DNA of 64,000 bases, from assembly GCA_029547205.1 (NCBI GenBank), contig JAKPPT010000115.1, positions 62,001-126,000 on the forward strand, given 5' to 3'. Below are positions 1-64,000 of this stretch, piece after piece; the first letter of the stretch is position 1, and every line of letters begins with the position of its first letter. The stretch comes from Spirochaetota bacterium. GTDB lineage: Bacteria > Spirochaetota > Spirochaetia > Treponematales > UBA12059. The notes below the pieces were generated by a model. That model was not told the origin of the DNA and ran no database searches. It saw nothing but the letters and a program-made list of their open reading frames with translations. The translations under genes and the position numbers were made by a program.

Positions 1-1689
1 CAGTCCCAGATCATAGAGTACCTTATGCCAGAATCGCGCATACAGGAGGTGCAATACCGCATGTTCCGTACCTCCTACGTATAGTTTTACAGGAAGCCAA
101 TAATTAAGTTTTTCCCTATCAGCAAATGCCAAAGCATTATGCGGATCGATGTACCTGAGATAGTACCAGCAGGAGCCAGCCCACTGCGGCATGGTATTAG
201 TTTCTCGTTTTGCTTTACCTCCGCACTGCGGACAGGTTGTATGTACCCATGAATCAATTCGTACGAGCGGTGATTCTCCTGTACCACTCGGGGCATAACT
301 TTCAACATCAGGAAGCACTACCGGCAATTCGGATTCTGGCACCGGCACTATGCCGCAGTGTTCACAGTGCACGACGGGAATTGGTTCGCCCCAGTAACGC
401 TGTCTTGAAAAGAGCCAGTCACGCAGCTTATAGCTCACCGCATACTTACCTAAGCCATGAGCTTCGAGCCATGCTGTGATTTTCTTTTTAAACTCAGCTG
501 TAGGAATTCCATTAAACTCGCCAGAATTAACTGCAATACCATCACCGGAAAAACAGCCATCTTTCTCGGTACAGTAATCGGGTTTATCTACAGGCTTAAC
601 AACATCAATTATAGGAAGCCCGAATTTTTTAGCAAACTCATAATCGCGCTCATCATGTGCAGGGACTGCCATAATTGCACCGGTTCCATAGCTGATGAGT
701 ACGTAATCGGAAATCCAGATAGGTATTTCTTTTCCATTAACAGGATTTATTGCATAGGCACCTGTCCACACCCCGGTCTTTGTTTTAGCAAGATCCGTGC
801 GTTCAAGATCGCTCTTGTGAGATGCCTCATCAATATAGCGCTCGACAGCTGTGCGCTGCGAATCTGCAGTAATCTTTTGTACCAGAGCATGTTCCGGTGC
901 AAGTACCATGTATGTAGCACCAAACAGGGTATCCGGTCGGGTTGTAAACACGGTTATCGTATCATTAGTTCCCTTAACCTTGAAATGCACATGCGCGCCT
1001 TCGGATTTACCAATCCAGTTTCTCTGCATTGCTTTAACTGGTTCTGGCCAATCAAGATCTTCGAGGTCTTCAAGGAGCCGATCGGCATAGGCAGTTATTT
1101 TTAATACCCATTGGCGTATACGCTTTCGTACAACTTTAGTACCACACCGATCGCAGAGGCCTTCTTTTACCTCTTCATTTGCTAGTCCGGTTTTACATGA
1201 AGGACAAAAATTAATAGGTTCATCAGACTCATACGCAAGTCCTTTTTTGAAAAGCTGAAGAAAAATCCACTGCGTCCATTTGTAGTACTCAGGATCGCAG
1301 GTTGAAATTTCTCTATCCCAATCATACGAAAAACCAAAGCTCTTTATCTGTTCTCTAAAGCGTTTAATATTGGCCTGTGTGGTGATAGCGGGATGTGTTC
1401 CTGTTTGAATTGCATAGTTTTCAGCAGGAAGTCCAAATGCATCAAACCCCATAGGATGGAGCACATTGTACCCGCGCATTCTCAAAAAACGACAAAAAAT
1501 ATCGGTAGCGGTATAACCCTCGGGGTGTCCAACATGGAGTCCTGCTCCAGACGGATAGGGAAACATATCAAGCACGTAATATCGCCTGTCTTCGGGGAAT
1601 TGTGCATCTTCCGAACACTTAAACGTTTTATGCTCTTCCCAGTACTTCTGCCACTTTTTCTCTATTTCAGTATACGCATATCGAGCCAT
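1..1689 (-). CDS. leuS: Leucyl-tRNA synthetase, N-terminal part (C-terminus beyond window start)
   Basis: Reverse-strand translation from ATG at 1689: [23 protein letters not shown]...[64 protein letters not shown], the class I LeuRS HIGH region. Absent from the ORF track because it runs off the edge. Confidence 0.95.
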
Positions 1690-1734
1690 GATAAACCTCA
1701 CTTGTGCATAGGAGCATAACAAAAATAGAAATGG

Positions 1735-1895
1735 GTTTCAAGGCAAGCATGGTGAATTATAGATTTTACAAGGCGCGCTGGTGAGCGCTCAGGCTCTCCG
1801 TTTCAAGGCAATCATGGTGAATTAAAGCTTCATTTCCTCCGCTATTCAGGCGGCGTGCTCCTCCATTTCAAGGCAATCATGGTGAATTAAAGCTT
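1735..1895. CRISPR. CRISPR-like mini-array: 3 repeats (about 30 bp, GTTTCAAGGCAATCATGGTGAATTAAAGCT), 2 spacers (about 35 bp)
   Basis: Repeat starts at 1735, 1800 and 1865 (exact 65-bp period). Copies 2 and 3 are near identical; copy 1 is degenerate. Intervening sequences differ. No cas genes in window. Confidence 0.45.
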
Positions 1896-1898
1896 ATT

Positions 1899-3074
1899 TT
1901 ATTGCCCTGTTACCTGAGCTGGAATTCTCTGCCGGGCAATTGGTATAAAACCCTTGCCAATCTGATAGAAATCCTGTGCTACCAGTATCGTTCGCATTGA
2001 ACGAATACCTGTTGCAGGATCTGTAAAATACGAAGCTTCCCACCCAATAGAACTATCAATCTTTTTTAAGTTTTCAAGCACTGTTTTAGTATTGACAAAT
2101 CTCGTTATAGCTGTTCGCCTGTAATTTTTGGCTTCAAGAATACGAGCAATTTCATTACAGGCAGATTCTACCAGTGCAACTTCCTGTGGATATCCCGGAA
2201 CAACCATCTTTATGTAGGGATTTACTGTTATATAATACTTATTTATGATTCCAAGCAATCTTCCTGGCAATGTTGGAAGCCAACTCCCATCATTGCCATA
2301 CTGATTAAAAAGGGCTTCGAGATATGGCTTATAGCTGATAGGAAACCCAGGAATAAACACAAGCAAATTGTTCATTTGTGCTATTTTTTCTTCACTAAAT
2401 TTTATTGACGGCGCATACAGAACAGCTGCATTTTGCATACTATAATCAAACGTTTTTTCATTATAAAGAATACTTTCCGCGTTTTCATATTTTATAGATT
2501 GCAGTAACGTGTTGTTATAAAAGTATGCAAGGCTGTTTTTAGGTTCTTTAGAGTAATCTGGAATTATGATTTTTTCTATTCCAAGCTTTTTTGCCGTTAC
2601 AATAGCTCCATAAGCACATTTACGGTAATCGGTTGCAAGCACAAAATCACATTCAGCTTCCACTTCATAAATATTATTTTCAGGCTCAATTGCTGCAATA
2701 ATAATGTCAGGATACGTCTTGCGCACCTCTTGAACTGCAGTAACCATACCCGTTACTGCCGGTGCAATGATAAAAGCCCTTATGCCCTGTTGCTCTATCA
2801 TTGTGCGCATAGCATGCTCTAACCATGCACTTACCTTGCTTCTGCCCTGAGGAGCATCGAACGTACCCGGATAAGTCATTGAAAATCCAGCTCTGCCCAT
2901 GTAGACACCTTCCGGGTACCCGCTTGATGCTGCATACAGGACTGCAACTGGCAGTACCTGTTTTATAGCATCAGCTTTGACCGGTTTTTGCACAGAATCA
3001 GTATTTTGCTGAGGTTTTTGAGTACAGGAACATACAATACCAATGAGACATATGAGTAATACAAGACGCTTCAT
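1899..3074 (-). CDS. Lipoprotein, DUF3798-like (periplasmic-binding-like)
   Basis: 391 aa, lipobox-like N-terminus (LIGIVCSC); resembles the DUF3798 family by eye. Confidence 0.6.
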   Translation of the reverse strand: MKRLVLLICLIGIVCSCTQKPQQNTDSVQKPVKADAIKQVLPVAVLYAASSGYPEGVYMGRAGFSMTYPGTFDAPQGRSKVSAWLEHAMRTMIEQQGIRAFIIAPAVTGMVTAVQEVRKTYPDIIIAAIEPENNIYEVEAECDFVLATDYRKCAYGAIVTAKKLGIEKIIIPDYSKEPKNSLAYFYNNTLLQSIKYENAESILYNEKTFDYSMQNAAVLYAPSIKFSEEKIAQMNNLLVFIPGFPISYKPYLEALFNQYGNDGSWLPTLPGRLLGIINKYYITVNPYIKMVVPGYPQEVALVESACNEIARILEAKNYRRTAITRFVNTKTVLENLKKIDSSIGWEASYFTDPATGIRSMRTILVAQDFYQIGKGFIPIARQRIPAQVTGQ

Positions 3075-33079: not shown

Positions 33080-34088
33080 GATGTATGCTATGAAAAAATT
33101 ATTGTGTATCACTGTAATGCTTACAATTCTGAGTTTCGCATTTAGCATGGATATTTCTGTGCTTGGGACATTTGGCAATGCTAACATGAGCTGGACGTCG
33201 ACGACCCCCATTGCAGAACCAGCTTTTCCATACACAAATTGGCTCCCTGGCATGGAAATCACTCTATCCGAAAACACAGCAAACAATATTTCATTTTCCA
33301 TTGATTATCTTTTAGATCCAGTACTACGTTCATTGCTAACCGGTACAATTAACTATAACCTCGGTATTTTTAAACTCGGCATCGGACCCATGGCTGGATT
33401 ATTTAACACGTGGTCTGTCCCTGTAAAAGCGGGAATAACAACACTTTTTGGCATTGATATCATAGGTTCATTTTTTGCTGGTATATCGGTCGGATCGAGT
33501 ATCGGAGCACCTCCATCTGCCCCTGGTGATTACATGCAAGAATATAATACACTCTATGCGGGCTACTATCTTTCCAATGCTGTCTGTACACTCGCAGTAG
33601 ACACCAAGAGTCTTTATGTCATGGGAGAGGCAAACACACGCATCATTGATCGTTCTACTGAATACAAATTCATAACAGAATTGTTTAAGAAAAATGTGCC
33701 CTATACCCTCACCCTTGGTTTTTCAGCGATAAAAATTTCACGCGACTATGGAAATAGCGTAATCGACAGCTTGTTTAACCTGATGGTTAAAACCAAATTT
33801 TCTTATAGCGTGGTACCGGGCGTGTATATCGATATGGTATTTAATGGTGTTGTTTATTCTCTTGGACTCGATGCACTTGCAGGAAGAGGACCAGCCAACA
33901 ACACACTGCTATTTTCTGCTGGTTTTGGTGTAACATTTCGTCCCGATCTTTACCGGACATCAGCAGCATTACCATCAGAGCCCACTACAGAACCCACTAC
34001 AGAGCCGGAAACTAATGTACAATCAGAATCTACTAACGAACCAGCGGCTGAAACACAATCAGAATCCGAAGAGGCGTCGGCCCCTTAG
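33072..34088 (+). CDS. Hypothetical secreted beta-barrel-like protein with Pro/Glu/Thr-rich tail
   Basis: 338 aa; signal peptide; tail EPTTEPTTEPETNVQSESTNEPAAETQSESEEASAP; stop falls in a 19-bp tandem array. Confidence 0.65.
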   Translation: MNRMYAMKKLLCITVMLTILSFAFSMDISVLGTFGNANMSWTSTTPIAEPAFPYTNWLPGMEITLSENTANNISFSIDYLLDPVLRSLLTGTINYNLGIFKLGIGPMAGLFNTWSVPVKAGITTLFGIDIIGSFFAGISVGSSIGAPPSAPGDYMQEYNTLYAGYYLSNAVCTLAVDTKSLYVMGEANTRIIDRSTEYKFITELFKKNVPYTLTLGFSAIKISRDYGNSVIDSLFNLMVKTKFSYSVVPGVYIDMVFNGVVYSLGLDALAGRGPANNTLLFSAGFGVTFRPDLYRTSAALPSEPTTEPTTEPETNVQSESTNEPAAETQSESEEASAP

Positions 34089-34183
34089 AGAACCGTCAGC
34101 ACCTTAGAGAACCGTCAGCCTCTTAGAGAACCGTCGGCCTCTTAGAGAACCGTCGGCCCCTTAGAGAACCGTCAGCCTCTTAG
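34076..34183. repeat. 19-bp tandem repeat array (about 5.7 copies of GTCRGCCYCTTAGAGAACC)
   Basis: Direct reading of units at 34076, 34095, 34114, 34133, 34152, 34171. Confidence 0.95.
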
Positions 34184-34273
34184 GAATAAAAGCAGCTACC
34201 AGCAAGTATTTTGGCATAAATTTTGCTAGTTAATCTCTTACAGTACTACACTACTCACACAATTGGAGGTTAC

Positions 34274-35620: not shown

Positions 35621-35659
35621 CAGTACAGAAATCTGTTTCATACCGTTTTGGAAACTATG

Positions 35660-35757
35660 AAGCATATAAAGAGGCGGGGACTAAGGGACCAGGAAGTTAA
35701 AGAAGCCGGGGACAGACCTCGTTATAAAGCATATAAAGAGGCGGGGACAGACCCCGC
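35660..35757. repeat. 22-bp direct repeat (aagcatataaagaggcggggac, at 35660 and 35727) ending in a GC-rich hairpin
   Basis: Exact repeat; second copy runs into GCGGGGACAGACCCCGCC-tttttt. Confidence 0.8.
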
Positions 35758-46857: not shown

Positions 46858-46972
46858 TTACTATGCTACGTTACTACGCGCTTTTTGCTTTGGAGTAATT
46901 CCGGCAAAAGAAAGTGAATCCGATTGCCGGACGCTTTACTATGCTACGTTACTACGCGCCTTTTGCCTTGAG
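46858..46972. repeat. Direct repeat (ttactatgctacgttactacgcgc) duplicating the 3' end of the acyl-CoA synthetase gene
   Basis: Exact 24-bp copies at 46858 and 46936, with further similarity (tttttgcttt / cttttgcctt). Confidence 0.8.
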
Positions 46973-52950: not shown

Positions 52951-53052
52951 TTACTGTGACGAAGCTTGGGTTACTGTCACGAAGCTTGTGAAGCCATCTC
53001 ATTTTTTATTGAGACTAGCAAATTAGTGCGCTTCACAAGCTTCGTGTCACTA
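52951..53052. mobile_element. Inverted-repeat element copy F with a duplicated left end
   Basis: ttactgtgacgaagcttggg|ttactgtcacgaagcttgtgaag ... cttcacaagcttcgtgtcactag. Confidence 0.7.
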
Positions 53053-61536: not shown

Positions 61537-64000
61537 ATGTTAGACAGCGAAACTAAACGACGAATTGATACTGCGCGTGATATACTCGTAGGCAAAGTGC
61601 CCGACCCAAAAAGTCAGGTGGAGCAGATTACCATTGCTCTTGTGTATAAGTTCATGGATGACATGGATAAGGAAGCGGTTGCTCTTGGAGGAAAACCAAG
61701 CTTTTTTACCGGCGATTATGAACGCTACGCATGGAGCAACATATTTGACCCCCGCCTTGGTGGTCATGAAATGCTCAATTTATATGCTGAAGCCATTACC
61801 CGGATGAGCCAGAACCCGAATCTTCCTCAACTCTTCCGTGATATTTTCAAGAATGCCTATCTACCATACCGTGACCCGGAAACCTTGAAACTTTTCCTTA
61901 AAACCATCAATGATTTTACCTACGACCATTCTGAACGATTGGGCGATGCCTTTGAGTATCTTCTTTCGGTTTTGGGAAGTCAGGGTGATGCGGGGCAGTT
62001 TAGAACCCCCCGGCATATCATTGATTTTATGGTGCAGGTTGTAGACCCCCAAAAGCATGAAACAGTTTTAGATCCTGCCTGCGGTACCGCTGGTTTTCTG
62101 ATTTCTGCTTACAAACATATTTTAAGAGAAAATACATCACCCCAATATCGCAATCAGAACGGTACCAATAGAGGCGACTTACTCAATCCTGAAGAACGTA
62201 AAAAACTATTAACCAATTTCAAAGGTTACGATATATCACCGGATATGGTGCGGCTTTCGCTTGTCAATATGTATCTGCATGGATTTGTTCAGCCGCAGAT
62301 TGTGGAATACGATACCCTGACCAGTGAGGACCGCTGGAATGAATACGCTGATGTTATTCTTGCCAATCCCCCTTTTATGACACCGAAAGGCGGTATCAAA
62401 CCTCATAAACGCTTTAGCGTACAGAGCAACCGAAGCGAAGTGCTGTTTGTTGATTATATTGCCGAGCACCTTACCCCTACTGGCAGGGCTGCGGTAATTG
62501 TACCCGAAGGCATTATCTTCCAGAGTGCAAATGCGTATAAGCAACTGCGTAAAATGCTGGTCGAAAACCATCTTTATGCGGTAGTATCGCTTCCTGCAGG
62601 TGTGTTTAATCCCTATTCCGGGGTGAAGACCTCTATACTGCTTATGGACAGGCAACTTGCAAAGAAGACCGATTCTATTCTATTTGTAAAGATCGAAAAC
62701 GACGGCTTTGATCTTGGTGCCCAGCGCCGACCAATAGACAAAAACGACCTGCCCGATGCGTTGAATGTTATTAAGGATTATATTACTGCTGTCAGAAATA
62801 ATACACCGGAATTATTTATTGCAGAAGAAAAGCCCTGTAATGCTTTGCTGGTAAAAAAAGAAAAGCTGGCAGAAAATGGGGAATACAACCTGACCGGGGA
62901 TAGATACAGAATTGTAGAAAAACGAAAACACCAGAAATGGCCGATGGTGAGGTTGATGAAAGTATGTGAGATTGAAAGTGGTTCTCGCCAAAAAGGAGGT
63001 GCGGTAAGTGAAGGTGTCTATAGTATTGGCGGTGAACAGATAGCAGAAGATAGTTCAATCCGTTTTGATAAAATGAAATATATCACCAGAGAACATTTCT
63101 CAGAAATGAGACGAGGAATTCTCAGAGAGAACGATGTATTAATGGTAAAAGATGGTGCAACCACTGGAAAAATTGGATTTTGGAAATATTCCTACGAAGC
63201 GGCAGTAAATGAGCATGTTTATATTTTTCGTGCTAATGAATATATCGAAAGTTATTTTCTTTTTAGAATATTACAGTCGGAAAAGTTTCAAGATTTATTG
63301 AAACCGTATAAAAAAGGAATAATCGGTGGTGTGAGTTTGGAGATTCAAAATATCCAAATCCCCCTTCCGCCGCTTGAGGTCCAGCGCGAGATTGTTGCCG
63401 AGATAGAGGGTTACCAGAAGCTGATTGACGGCTGCCGTCAGGTGGTCGATTCGTGGAAACCGCAGATTGATATTGACCCCAAATGGCCAATGGTGAAGTT
63501 GGGGGAGGTGTGTGAATTGATAAGGGGTATAACGTATTCAAAAGAAGATGAAGTTGAAGAAAATGGCTATCCTGTTTTAAGGGCAAATAATATCAATTTA
63601 GATGGCACCTTGAACTTTGATGAAGTTAAACAAATATCTAAAAAAGTAAATTTAAATGAAAATAAGAAGTTAAAAAAAGGTGATATTTTTATCTGTTTAG
63701 CTAGTGGTAGTAAAGAACATATTGGTAAAGTAGCATTTATTAACAATGATATTGATTATTATTTCGGCGGTTTTATGGGAGCTATTCGGACTTTAAATAA
63801 TGAGATTCTAAACTCAAAATTTCTATTTATAAATTTAAAGAATTCCAAGTTTAATGAATATTTAAGAATTCAAATTAGTGGTGTTAATATAAATAACTTA
63901 AACTCAAAAATTTTATATGAGTTCCAAATCCCCCTCCCCCCACTTGAAGTCCAGCAAAAAATTGTTGCCAAAATCGAAGCTGAACGAAAAGTCATCGACG
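61537..64000 (+). CDS. Type I R-M methyltransferase fused to specificity subunit (HsdM-HsdS), 3' end beyond window
   Basis: Continuous frame from ATG 61537: MLDSETKRRIDTARDILVGK...LDPACGTAGFLISAYKHI...NPPFMTPKG...; then two S-type segments, IQIPLPPLEVQREIVAEIEGYQKLIDGCR and FQIPLPPLEVQQKIVAKIEAERKVID. No in-frame stop to the window end. Confidence 0.9.
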   Translation, partial: MLDSETKRRIDTARDILVGKVPDPKSQVEQITIALVYKFMDDMDKEAVALGGKPSFFTGDYERYAWSNIFDPRLGGHEMLNLYAEAITRMSQNPNLPQLFRDIFKNAYLPYRDPETLKLFLKTINDFTYDHSERLGDAFEYLLSVLGSQGDAGQFRTPRHIIDFMVQVVDPQKHETVLDPACGTAGFLISAYKHILRENTSPQYRNQNGTNRGDLLNPEERKKLLTNFKGYDISPDMVRLSLVNMYLHGFVQPQIVEYDTLTSEDRWNEYADVILANPPFMTPKGGIKPHKRFSVQSNRSEVLFVDYIAEHLTPTGRAAVIVPEGIIFQSANAYKQLRKMLVENHLYAVVSLPAGVFNPYSGVKTSILLMDRQLAKKTDSILFVKIENDGFDLGAQRRPIDKNDLPDALNVIKDYITAVRNNTPELFIAEEKPCNALLVKKEKLAENGEYNLTGDRYRIVEKRKHQKWPMVRLMKVCEIESGSRQKGGAVSEGVYSIGGEQIAEDSSIRFDKMKYITREHFSEMRRGILRENDVLMVKDGATTGKIGFWKYSYEAAVNEHVYIFRANEYIESYFLFRILQSEKFQDLLKPYKKGIIGGVSLEIQNIQIPLPPLEVQREIVAEIEGYQKLIDGCRQVVDSWKPQIDIDPKWPMVKLGEVCELIRGITYSKEDEVEENGYPVLRANNINLDGTLNFDEVKQISKKVNLNENKKLKKGDIFICLASGSKEHIGKVAFINNDIDYYFGGFMGAIRTLNNEILNSKFLFINLKNSKFNEYLRIQISGVNINNLNSKILYEFQIPLPPLEVQQKIVAKIEAERKVID

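Follow-up and report, generated by a model that had tools for sequence, protein, structure and literature searches.

A probable I-B-style CRISPR mini-array overlapping the predicted leuS promoter in a Spirochaetota bacterium

The window analysed here is a 64,000-nt stretch of DNA from a Spirochaetota bacterium, and near its left end a gap of 209 bp separates the start of leuS (1689, minus strand) from the stop codon of the gene upstream (1899). Most of this gap is occupied by three direct repeats of 28-31 nt, whose start-to-start distances are 65 and 65 bp (Table 1). An earlier note, made from the sequence alone, had described this arrangement as a CRISPR-like mini-array upstream of leuS, with repeats recurring at exactly 65 bp, two different intervening sequences and a degenerate first copy. 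All four of these descriptive points were reproduced in our analysis: the copies lie at 1735-1765, 1800-1830 and 1865-1895 when the repeat is taken at its longer length, and the ATG of leuS is found where this description requires it.

Table 1. Coordinates of the mini-array, the predicted leuS promoter elements and the flanking genes in the window
Feature	Position	Strand	Description
leuS (leucyl-tRNA synthetase), 5' part	1..1689	-	ATG at 1689; first 200 residues 68-83% identical to orthologues in relatives
Leader-side flank	1690..1734	+	45 bp, ending in AAATGG; doubles as the 5' region of leuS
Predicted leuS -10 box	1713..1718	-	TATGCT, in the leader-side flank, 17 nt from the -35 box
Repeat copy 1	1735..1762	+	GTTTCAAGGCAAGCATGGTGAATTATAG; leader-proximal; end at 1765 with a 31-nt repeat
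Predicted leuS -35 box	1736..1741	-	TTGAAA, inside repeat copy 1, with TGCC before it
Spacer 1	1763..1799	+	37 nt (28-nt repeat) or 34 nt, 1766-1799 (31-nt repeat); about 61% G+C
Repeat copy 2	1800..1827	+	Consensus copy, GTTTCAAGGCAATCATGGTGAATTAAAG; CTT common with copy 3, to 1830
Spacer 2	1828..1864	+	37 nt, or 34 nt (1831-1864); about 58% G+C
Repeat copy 3	1865..1892	+	Distal; to 1895 at 31 nt; base 1 changed from G to A
Upstream gene	1899..3074	-	391 aa, lipoprotein-like, signal peptide with Cys; stop codon 6 bp from the 28-nt distal repeat

Across 31 nt, only base 1 distinguishes copy 3 from copy 2. Copy 1 is the most divergent of the three, with changes relative to copy 2 at positions 12, 26 and 29, and we accordingly set the repeat length at 28 to 31 nt. 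The two spacers are of equal length within the array (34/34 or 37/37) and have no mutual similarity beyond chance (9 identical positions of 34, shuffle P = 0.61), and each holds a small G+C-rich inverted repeat. When the window was scanned for the 24-nt repeat core with up to three mismatches, three matches were obtained, compared with zero in 100 shuffles. The locus thus displays what is expected of a CRISPR array, namely near-identical direct repeats (within the usual range of about 23-47 nt) at regular spacing, which alternate with unique, mutually unrelated spacers of near-constant length.

Genome-wide DNA and pattern searches (2.65 Mb) placed the repeat at one locus, in three copies only. 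At three or fewer mismatches, it was absent from 394 genomes of the order and 393 genomes of the phylum, two draws that overlap in part and from which the bacterium's own genome is excepted; the exact 28-mer had no match in a large genome collection, and the 24-nt core had none in viral contigs. Since the repeat is confined to a single genomic locus and is missing from the order and phylum draws, it is not a dispersed element, and the alternative raised in the earlier note, that of some other small or dispersed direct repeat, can be discarded. Other kinds of short direct repeats are common in the window, which lends some plausibility to an ordinary tandem duplication, but such an event would not be expected to produce units that are about 90-97% alike in one half and unrelated in the other. 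A dispersed intergenic repeat or tandem duplication is accordingly extremely improbable.

Cas1 genes are present on two other contigs of this genome, C83 and C63, while none is found on C69, the contig to which the window belongs. Contig C83 carries a complete type I-B locus consisting of cas6, a large gene in the cas8 position, cas7 (Cst2/DevR), cas5, cas3, a short gene in the cas4 position, cas1b and cas2, with cas8 and cas4 named by position; the 540-aa product of the cas8-position gene (L010:10832-12454) matched no NCBIfam family. The cas2 gene is followed by an array of 29-nt repeats (GTTTTAGCTGCCAATAGTGGGATTTAAAG) with a period of 65-67 bp, the distal end of which is probably located on C57, a contig that terminates with these repeats; across C83 and C57 this array amounts to about 45 spacers. 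The nearest named relatives of the Cas1 proteins come from Brevinematales and Spirochaetes MAGs, and both these relatives and the gene content point to a spirochaete host. Contig C63 holds a type III-B locus with a 36-nt repeat unrelated to that of the I-B array, and its cas1 gene is adjoined by two neighbouring cas2-like genes (L011:10900-11477). The earlier observation of an array with no cas genes is therefore correct locally and incorrect for the genome as a whole, and the plain orphan array that it offered as an option is not right, because the genome holds a complete I-B locus and a III-B locus. The search that the note had proposed, for a main array and cas locus elsewhere in the genome, finds both on C83, with the III-B locus on C63 in addition.

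The mini-array resembles the host I-B array in several respects. Its consensus (copy 2) aligns to the host I-B repeat with a score of 10, which none of the 127,550 other 28-mers of the window attains and which has a chance probability of 1.0e-5 in 12 million simulated sites. Copy 2 matches the I-B repeats of L051 and L052, the loci of the two closest Cas1 relatives, equally well, and those of L054 and L055 moderately, and it has no likeness to III-B or I-C repeats; an origin from the III-B system was rejected, as the repeat of that system is 36 nt long and unlike that of the mini-array. The alignment is obtained with the plus-strand form, GTTTC...TTAAAG, and both arrays share the GTTT start and the TTAAAG end. 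The reverse complement scores much worse, so the sense strand of the mini-array is plus; the earlier note, which had taken the reverse complement ending in ...CTTGAAAC as a likeness to type I/III repeats, had chosen the wrong strand. The junction AATGG/GTTT (the slash separates leader end and repeat) is also common to the mini-array and the host array, where the leader ends in GCAATGG. Among the arrays beside related Cas1 genes, GG at the leader end recurs in L051, L052, L054 and L055 and is missing from L056 and L057. Within the window, AATGGGTTT(C/T)A occurs once. Finally, the main I-B array has seven repeats towards its distal end with the same G-to-A change at base 1 as the distal copy of the mini-array. 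Repeat, period, leader end and distal-repeat change thus all support the CRISPR-like reading of the earlier note, and we are confident, if short of certain, that positions 1735-1895 are a real CRISPR-type mini-array of I-B style whose cas genes are present elsewhere in the genome.

The two arrays also differ. The mini-array repeat is about two-thirds identical to the host repeat, with indels, it delimits 2 spacers against about 45, and it lies at another locus, with neither adjacent cas genes nor a long A+T-rich leader. The host I-B leader has no match at the mini-array locus beyond its last 5 bases, no plus-strand promoter was recognised in the 45-bp leader-side flank, and the A+T-rich, promoter-bearing leader that stands beside the first repeat in type I-B arrays is missing. 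For these reasons we call the mini-array I-B-style rather than a complete I-B locus. Its repeat is nevertheless of the I-B type, and compatible I-B cas genes exist in the cell, on C83 and not adjoining the mini-array; very probably, it is a type I-B-type array served in trans by the I-B locus. Spacer composition was considered as an argument against CRISPR, given that the mini-array spacers have 58-61% G+C, whereas 24 main-array spacers from the leader side average 33%. This argument was dropped, and the composition is no objection, because some distal main-array spacers are visibly G+C-rich too.

The leader-side end of repeat 1 coincides with the predicted -35 box of leuS on the minus strand. 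The predicted promoter has the form TGCC-TTGAAA-17-TATGCT and lies about 52 to 24 nt upstream of the ATG. A comparable form (TTGnnn, 16-18 nt, TAnnnT) was found in 16 of 17 relatives when the 110 bp preceding leuS were examined, against a mean of 0.5 and a maximum of 3 in shuffled sequences. In these relatives the TTG is mostly preceded by C, and TGCC-TTG as in the window is found in two of them. Based on this conservation of form, we infer that repeat copy 1 is used as a leuS promoter element. CRISPR repeats, on the other hand, commonly end in TTGAAA, and part of the -35 match may therefore be fortuitous. The overlap was missed in the earlier note, whose overall interpretation stands as regards a CRISPR-like mini-array and fails on the absence of cas genes, the orphan status and the strand. 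Neither an array nor a convincing single repeat copy was found upstream of leuS in the relatives; as these belong to other genera, they do not reveal the state before insertion. In one relative (G002), a match to the upstream gene is situated just before leuS, likewise without an array. As a separate observation, the divergent end of copy 1 gives rise, at 1748-1770, to an exact TATAAT match on the leuS strand (CTATAATTCACC), where copies 2 and 3 have TTTAAT; this could be an extra leuS promoter element.

The position upstream of leuS might also suggest that the repeats are a non-CRISPR cis-regulatory element of this gene, such as a leader peptide, a set of protein-binding sites or a structured leader. 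Each copy has ATG(A/C)TTGCCTTGAAA on the leuS strand, and the inverted repeats in both spacers would be in keeping with such a role. Against this, covariance models of Rfam recognised no family in the region at E values up to 1, including any known leuS leader RNA (T-box or other), and on both strands the predicted folding is no more stable than that of shuffled sequences (z +1.07 and +0.63); a structured leader RNA was rejected on these two grounds. The repeat is also absent from all relatives, and a cis-regulatory element leaves both the fixed 65-bp period with unrelated inserts and the I-B likeness unexplained, making this a very unlikely explanation.

Searches for the origin of the spacers returned no convincing protospacer for either one in 50,697 phage records, 72,556 plasmids and viral contigs (exact 20-21-mers in the last), so the comparison with phage and plasmid databases that the earlier note had recommended yields no source for them. 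Missing protospacers are usual for spacers of poorly sampled hosts, and since this host is poorly sampled, their absence is uninformative. A 25-bp match of spacer 2 in a relative (G020) was set aside as being at chance level, in G+C-rich, apparently coding sequence. Within the bacterium's own genome, both spacers gave short chance matches only, in a search whose reach does not extend down to complementarity of 8-11 nt.

This last result bears on the possibility that the mini-array has been exapted for regulation in the style of CreTA or scaRNA, in which case a crRNA-like RNA would direct the I-B Cascade to a promoter, perhaps the one of leuS. In published work on CreTA, which guards type I-B systems, repeats lying outside arrays are as a rule degenerate, with the first copy more affected than the second (PMC9458426). 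The present locus fits this pattern in having ectopic degenerate repeats with copy 1 the most diverged, in a host with an I-B effector. It departs from it in having three repeats and two spacers instead of one, in lying away from the cas locus, and in that no toxin gene was recognised and no target was found in the genome, where complementarity of 8-11 nt would fall below the reach of the search. We consider this explanation quite unlikely.

The explanation that we consider most likely, at somewhat less than even confidence, is that the locus is an I-B-style mini-array which depends in trans on the I-B locus and was seeded by off-target integration. In its specific form, which we hold more tentatively still, the locus would be a natural neo-CRISPR locus in which the I-B Cas1-Cas2 inserted two spacers into the promoter of leuS, an essential gene, with a piece of a housekeeping promoter becoming the repeat and the promoter region standing in for the leader. 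Read from left to right on the plus strand, the array would have its leader end at 1734. The resident Cas1-Cas2 would have mistaken AATGG/GTTTC...TTAAAG at the leuS promoter for a leader-repeat junction, inserting one spacer first and a second later and duplicating about 28-31 bp per insertion. Because the duplicated stretch begins with the leuS -35 box, each insertion would have rebuilt a working leuS promoter and hence been tolerated. The crRNAs predicted from the plus strand would be about 65 nt long with the handle AAUUAAAG. With the array promoter not found and repeat 1 degenerate, the array probably confers little or no immunity now. Both the off-target origin and the processing of the array in trans are, at this stage, inferred from comparison of sequences.

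Several observations agree with an off-target origin. Subtraction of the two inserted units leaves a gap of 79 bp in which the leuS promoter is retained. The site resembles a canonical leader-repeat junction, both in the common AATGG/GTTT and in its junction scores, with the caveat that AATGG is a match of 5 bases only, recognised post hoc. The repeat is unique in the genome and overlaps the promoter form of leuS that is conserved in relatives, distant as these are (other genera), and the flank bears no I-B leader save for the last bases. At simulated rates, a genome of this size is expected to hold about 20 chance sites at the junction score of copy 1 and fewer than one at that of the consensus; the off-target route is therefore possible and is not proven by similarity. 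Spacer integration outside arrays is described for Cas1-Cas2 overexpression in a 2018 study by Nivala and co-workers, which two later papers cite (PMC11788318, PMC9456107). The locus studied here would differ from such cases in being natural, apparently old, the product of two insertions and situated in the promoter of an essential gene, with the native single-copy site not seen; it is alike in having spacers outside the canonical array, repeat duplication at a junction-like site and an intact-looking Cas1-Cas2 in the cell. Neo-CRISPR loci formed through non-canonical spacer integration under Cas1-Cas2 overexpression were reportedly described by Nivala, Shipman and Church in 2018.

Other observations are less easily reconciled with off-target integration. 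In a recently active array the freshest repeat is expected to be leader-proximal, and here the copy at that end has diverged most. Among the genomes available there is no array-less sister that could show the single native copy, the nearest relatives being other genera. The failure to find a protospacer or a plus-strand promoter also counts against this origin. Moreover, the likeness to I-B repeats fits a diverged imported I-B array equally well. This leads to the main competing explanation, which we judge almost as likely: a relict orphan array. In this view, the locus would be all that survives of a type I-B array that was older or had been acquired horizontally; its repeat had diverged from the present one, its cas genes and leader were lost, and it adjoins leuS by coincidence. 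Such a relict would account for the resemblance to the I-B repeats of the same Cas1 clade, both in the host and in L051 and L052, and for the one degenerate copy, as in a decaying array. Orphan and degenerate CRISPR arrays are widespread (PMC8616872), and they share with this locus the small number of repeats, the lack of neighbouring cas genes and the presence of a degenerate copy. The locus differs from them in that its host has a compatible I-B system and in that the repeat was not found in relatives. A relict also has to contend with the repeat being absent from every genome sampled in the order and phylum, and with the failure to find a second copy, a cas remnant or a leader, the I-B leader having no match here and Cas1 being on other contigs. 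It further requires that the array landed by chance with its end exactly 17 nt from the leuS -10 box. The strength of the similarity was tried as a means of discriminating between the two origins, and the simulation does not separate them.

Isolated mini-arrays are common, and their origin can seldom be traced. In this case, the same host holds an I-B array whose repeat, leader end and drift of distal repeats offer a comparison for the mini-array, and the mini-array repeat overlaps a promoter form conserved in relatives. An off-target origin, if true, would make this locus a natural example of how new CRISPR loci could arise without breaking the target gene, because repeat duplication restores the promoter, and would also explain orphan repeats that are only roughly like known repeats.

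The window contains several other repeats. At 34051-34202, a 19-bp unit (AGAACCGTCAGCCTCTTAG) is repeated in tandem about six to seven times. A REP-like palindromic element around GTGTCACGAAGCTTGTG is dispersed in both orientations (8980, 24509, 26249, 36738 and 52968-53052), and a similar sequence, GAAGCTTCGTGACAC, stands upstream of leuS in the relatives L066 and L077. Two 35-bp direct repeats (TTACTATGCTACGTTACTACGCGC...), 78 bp apart with one unrelated 43-bp stretch between them, are found at 46858-46970 and are unlike the I-B repeat, while two 26-bp repeats 67 bp apart are located at 35656-35748, the second overlapping a terminator-like hairpin (GGCGGGGACAGACCCCGCC then T). Lastly, a 78-bp stretch is repeated at a spacing of 570 bp in 63353-64000, possibly representing the two halves of a restriction-modification specificity subunit.
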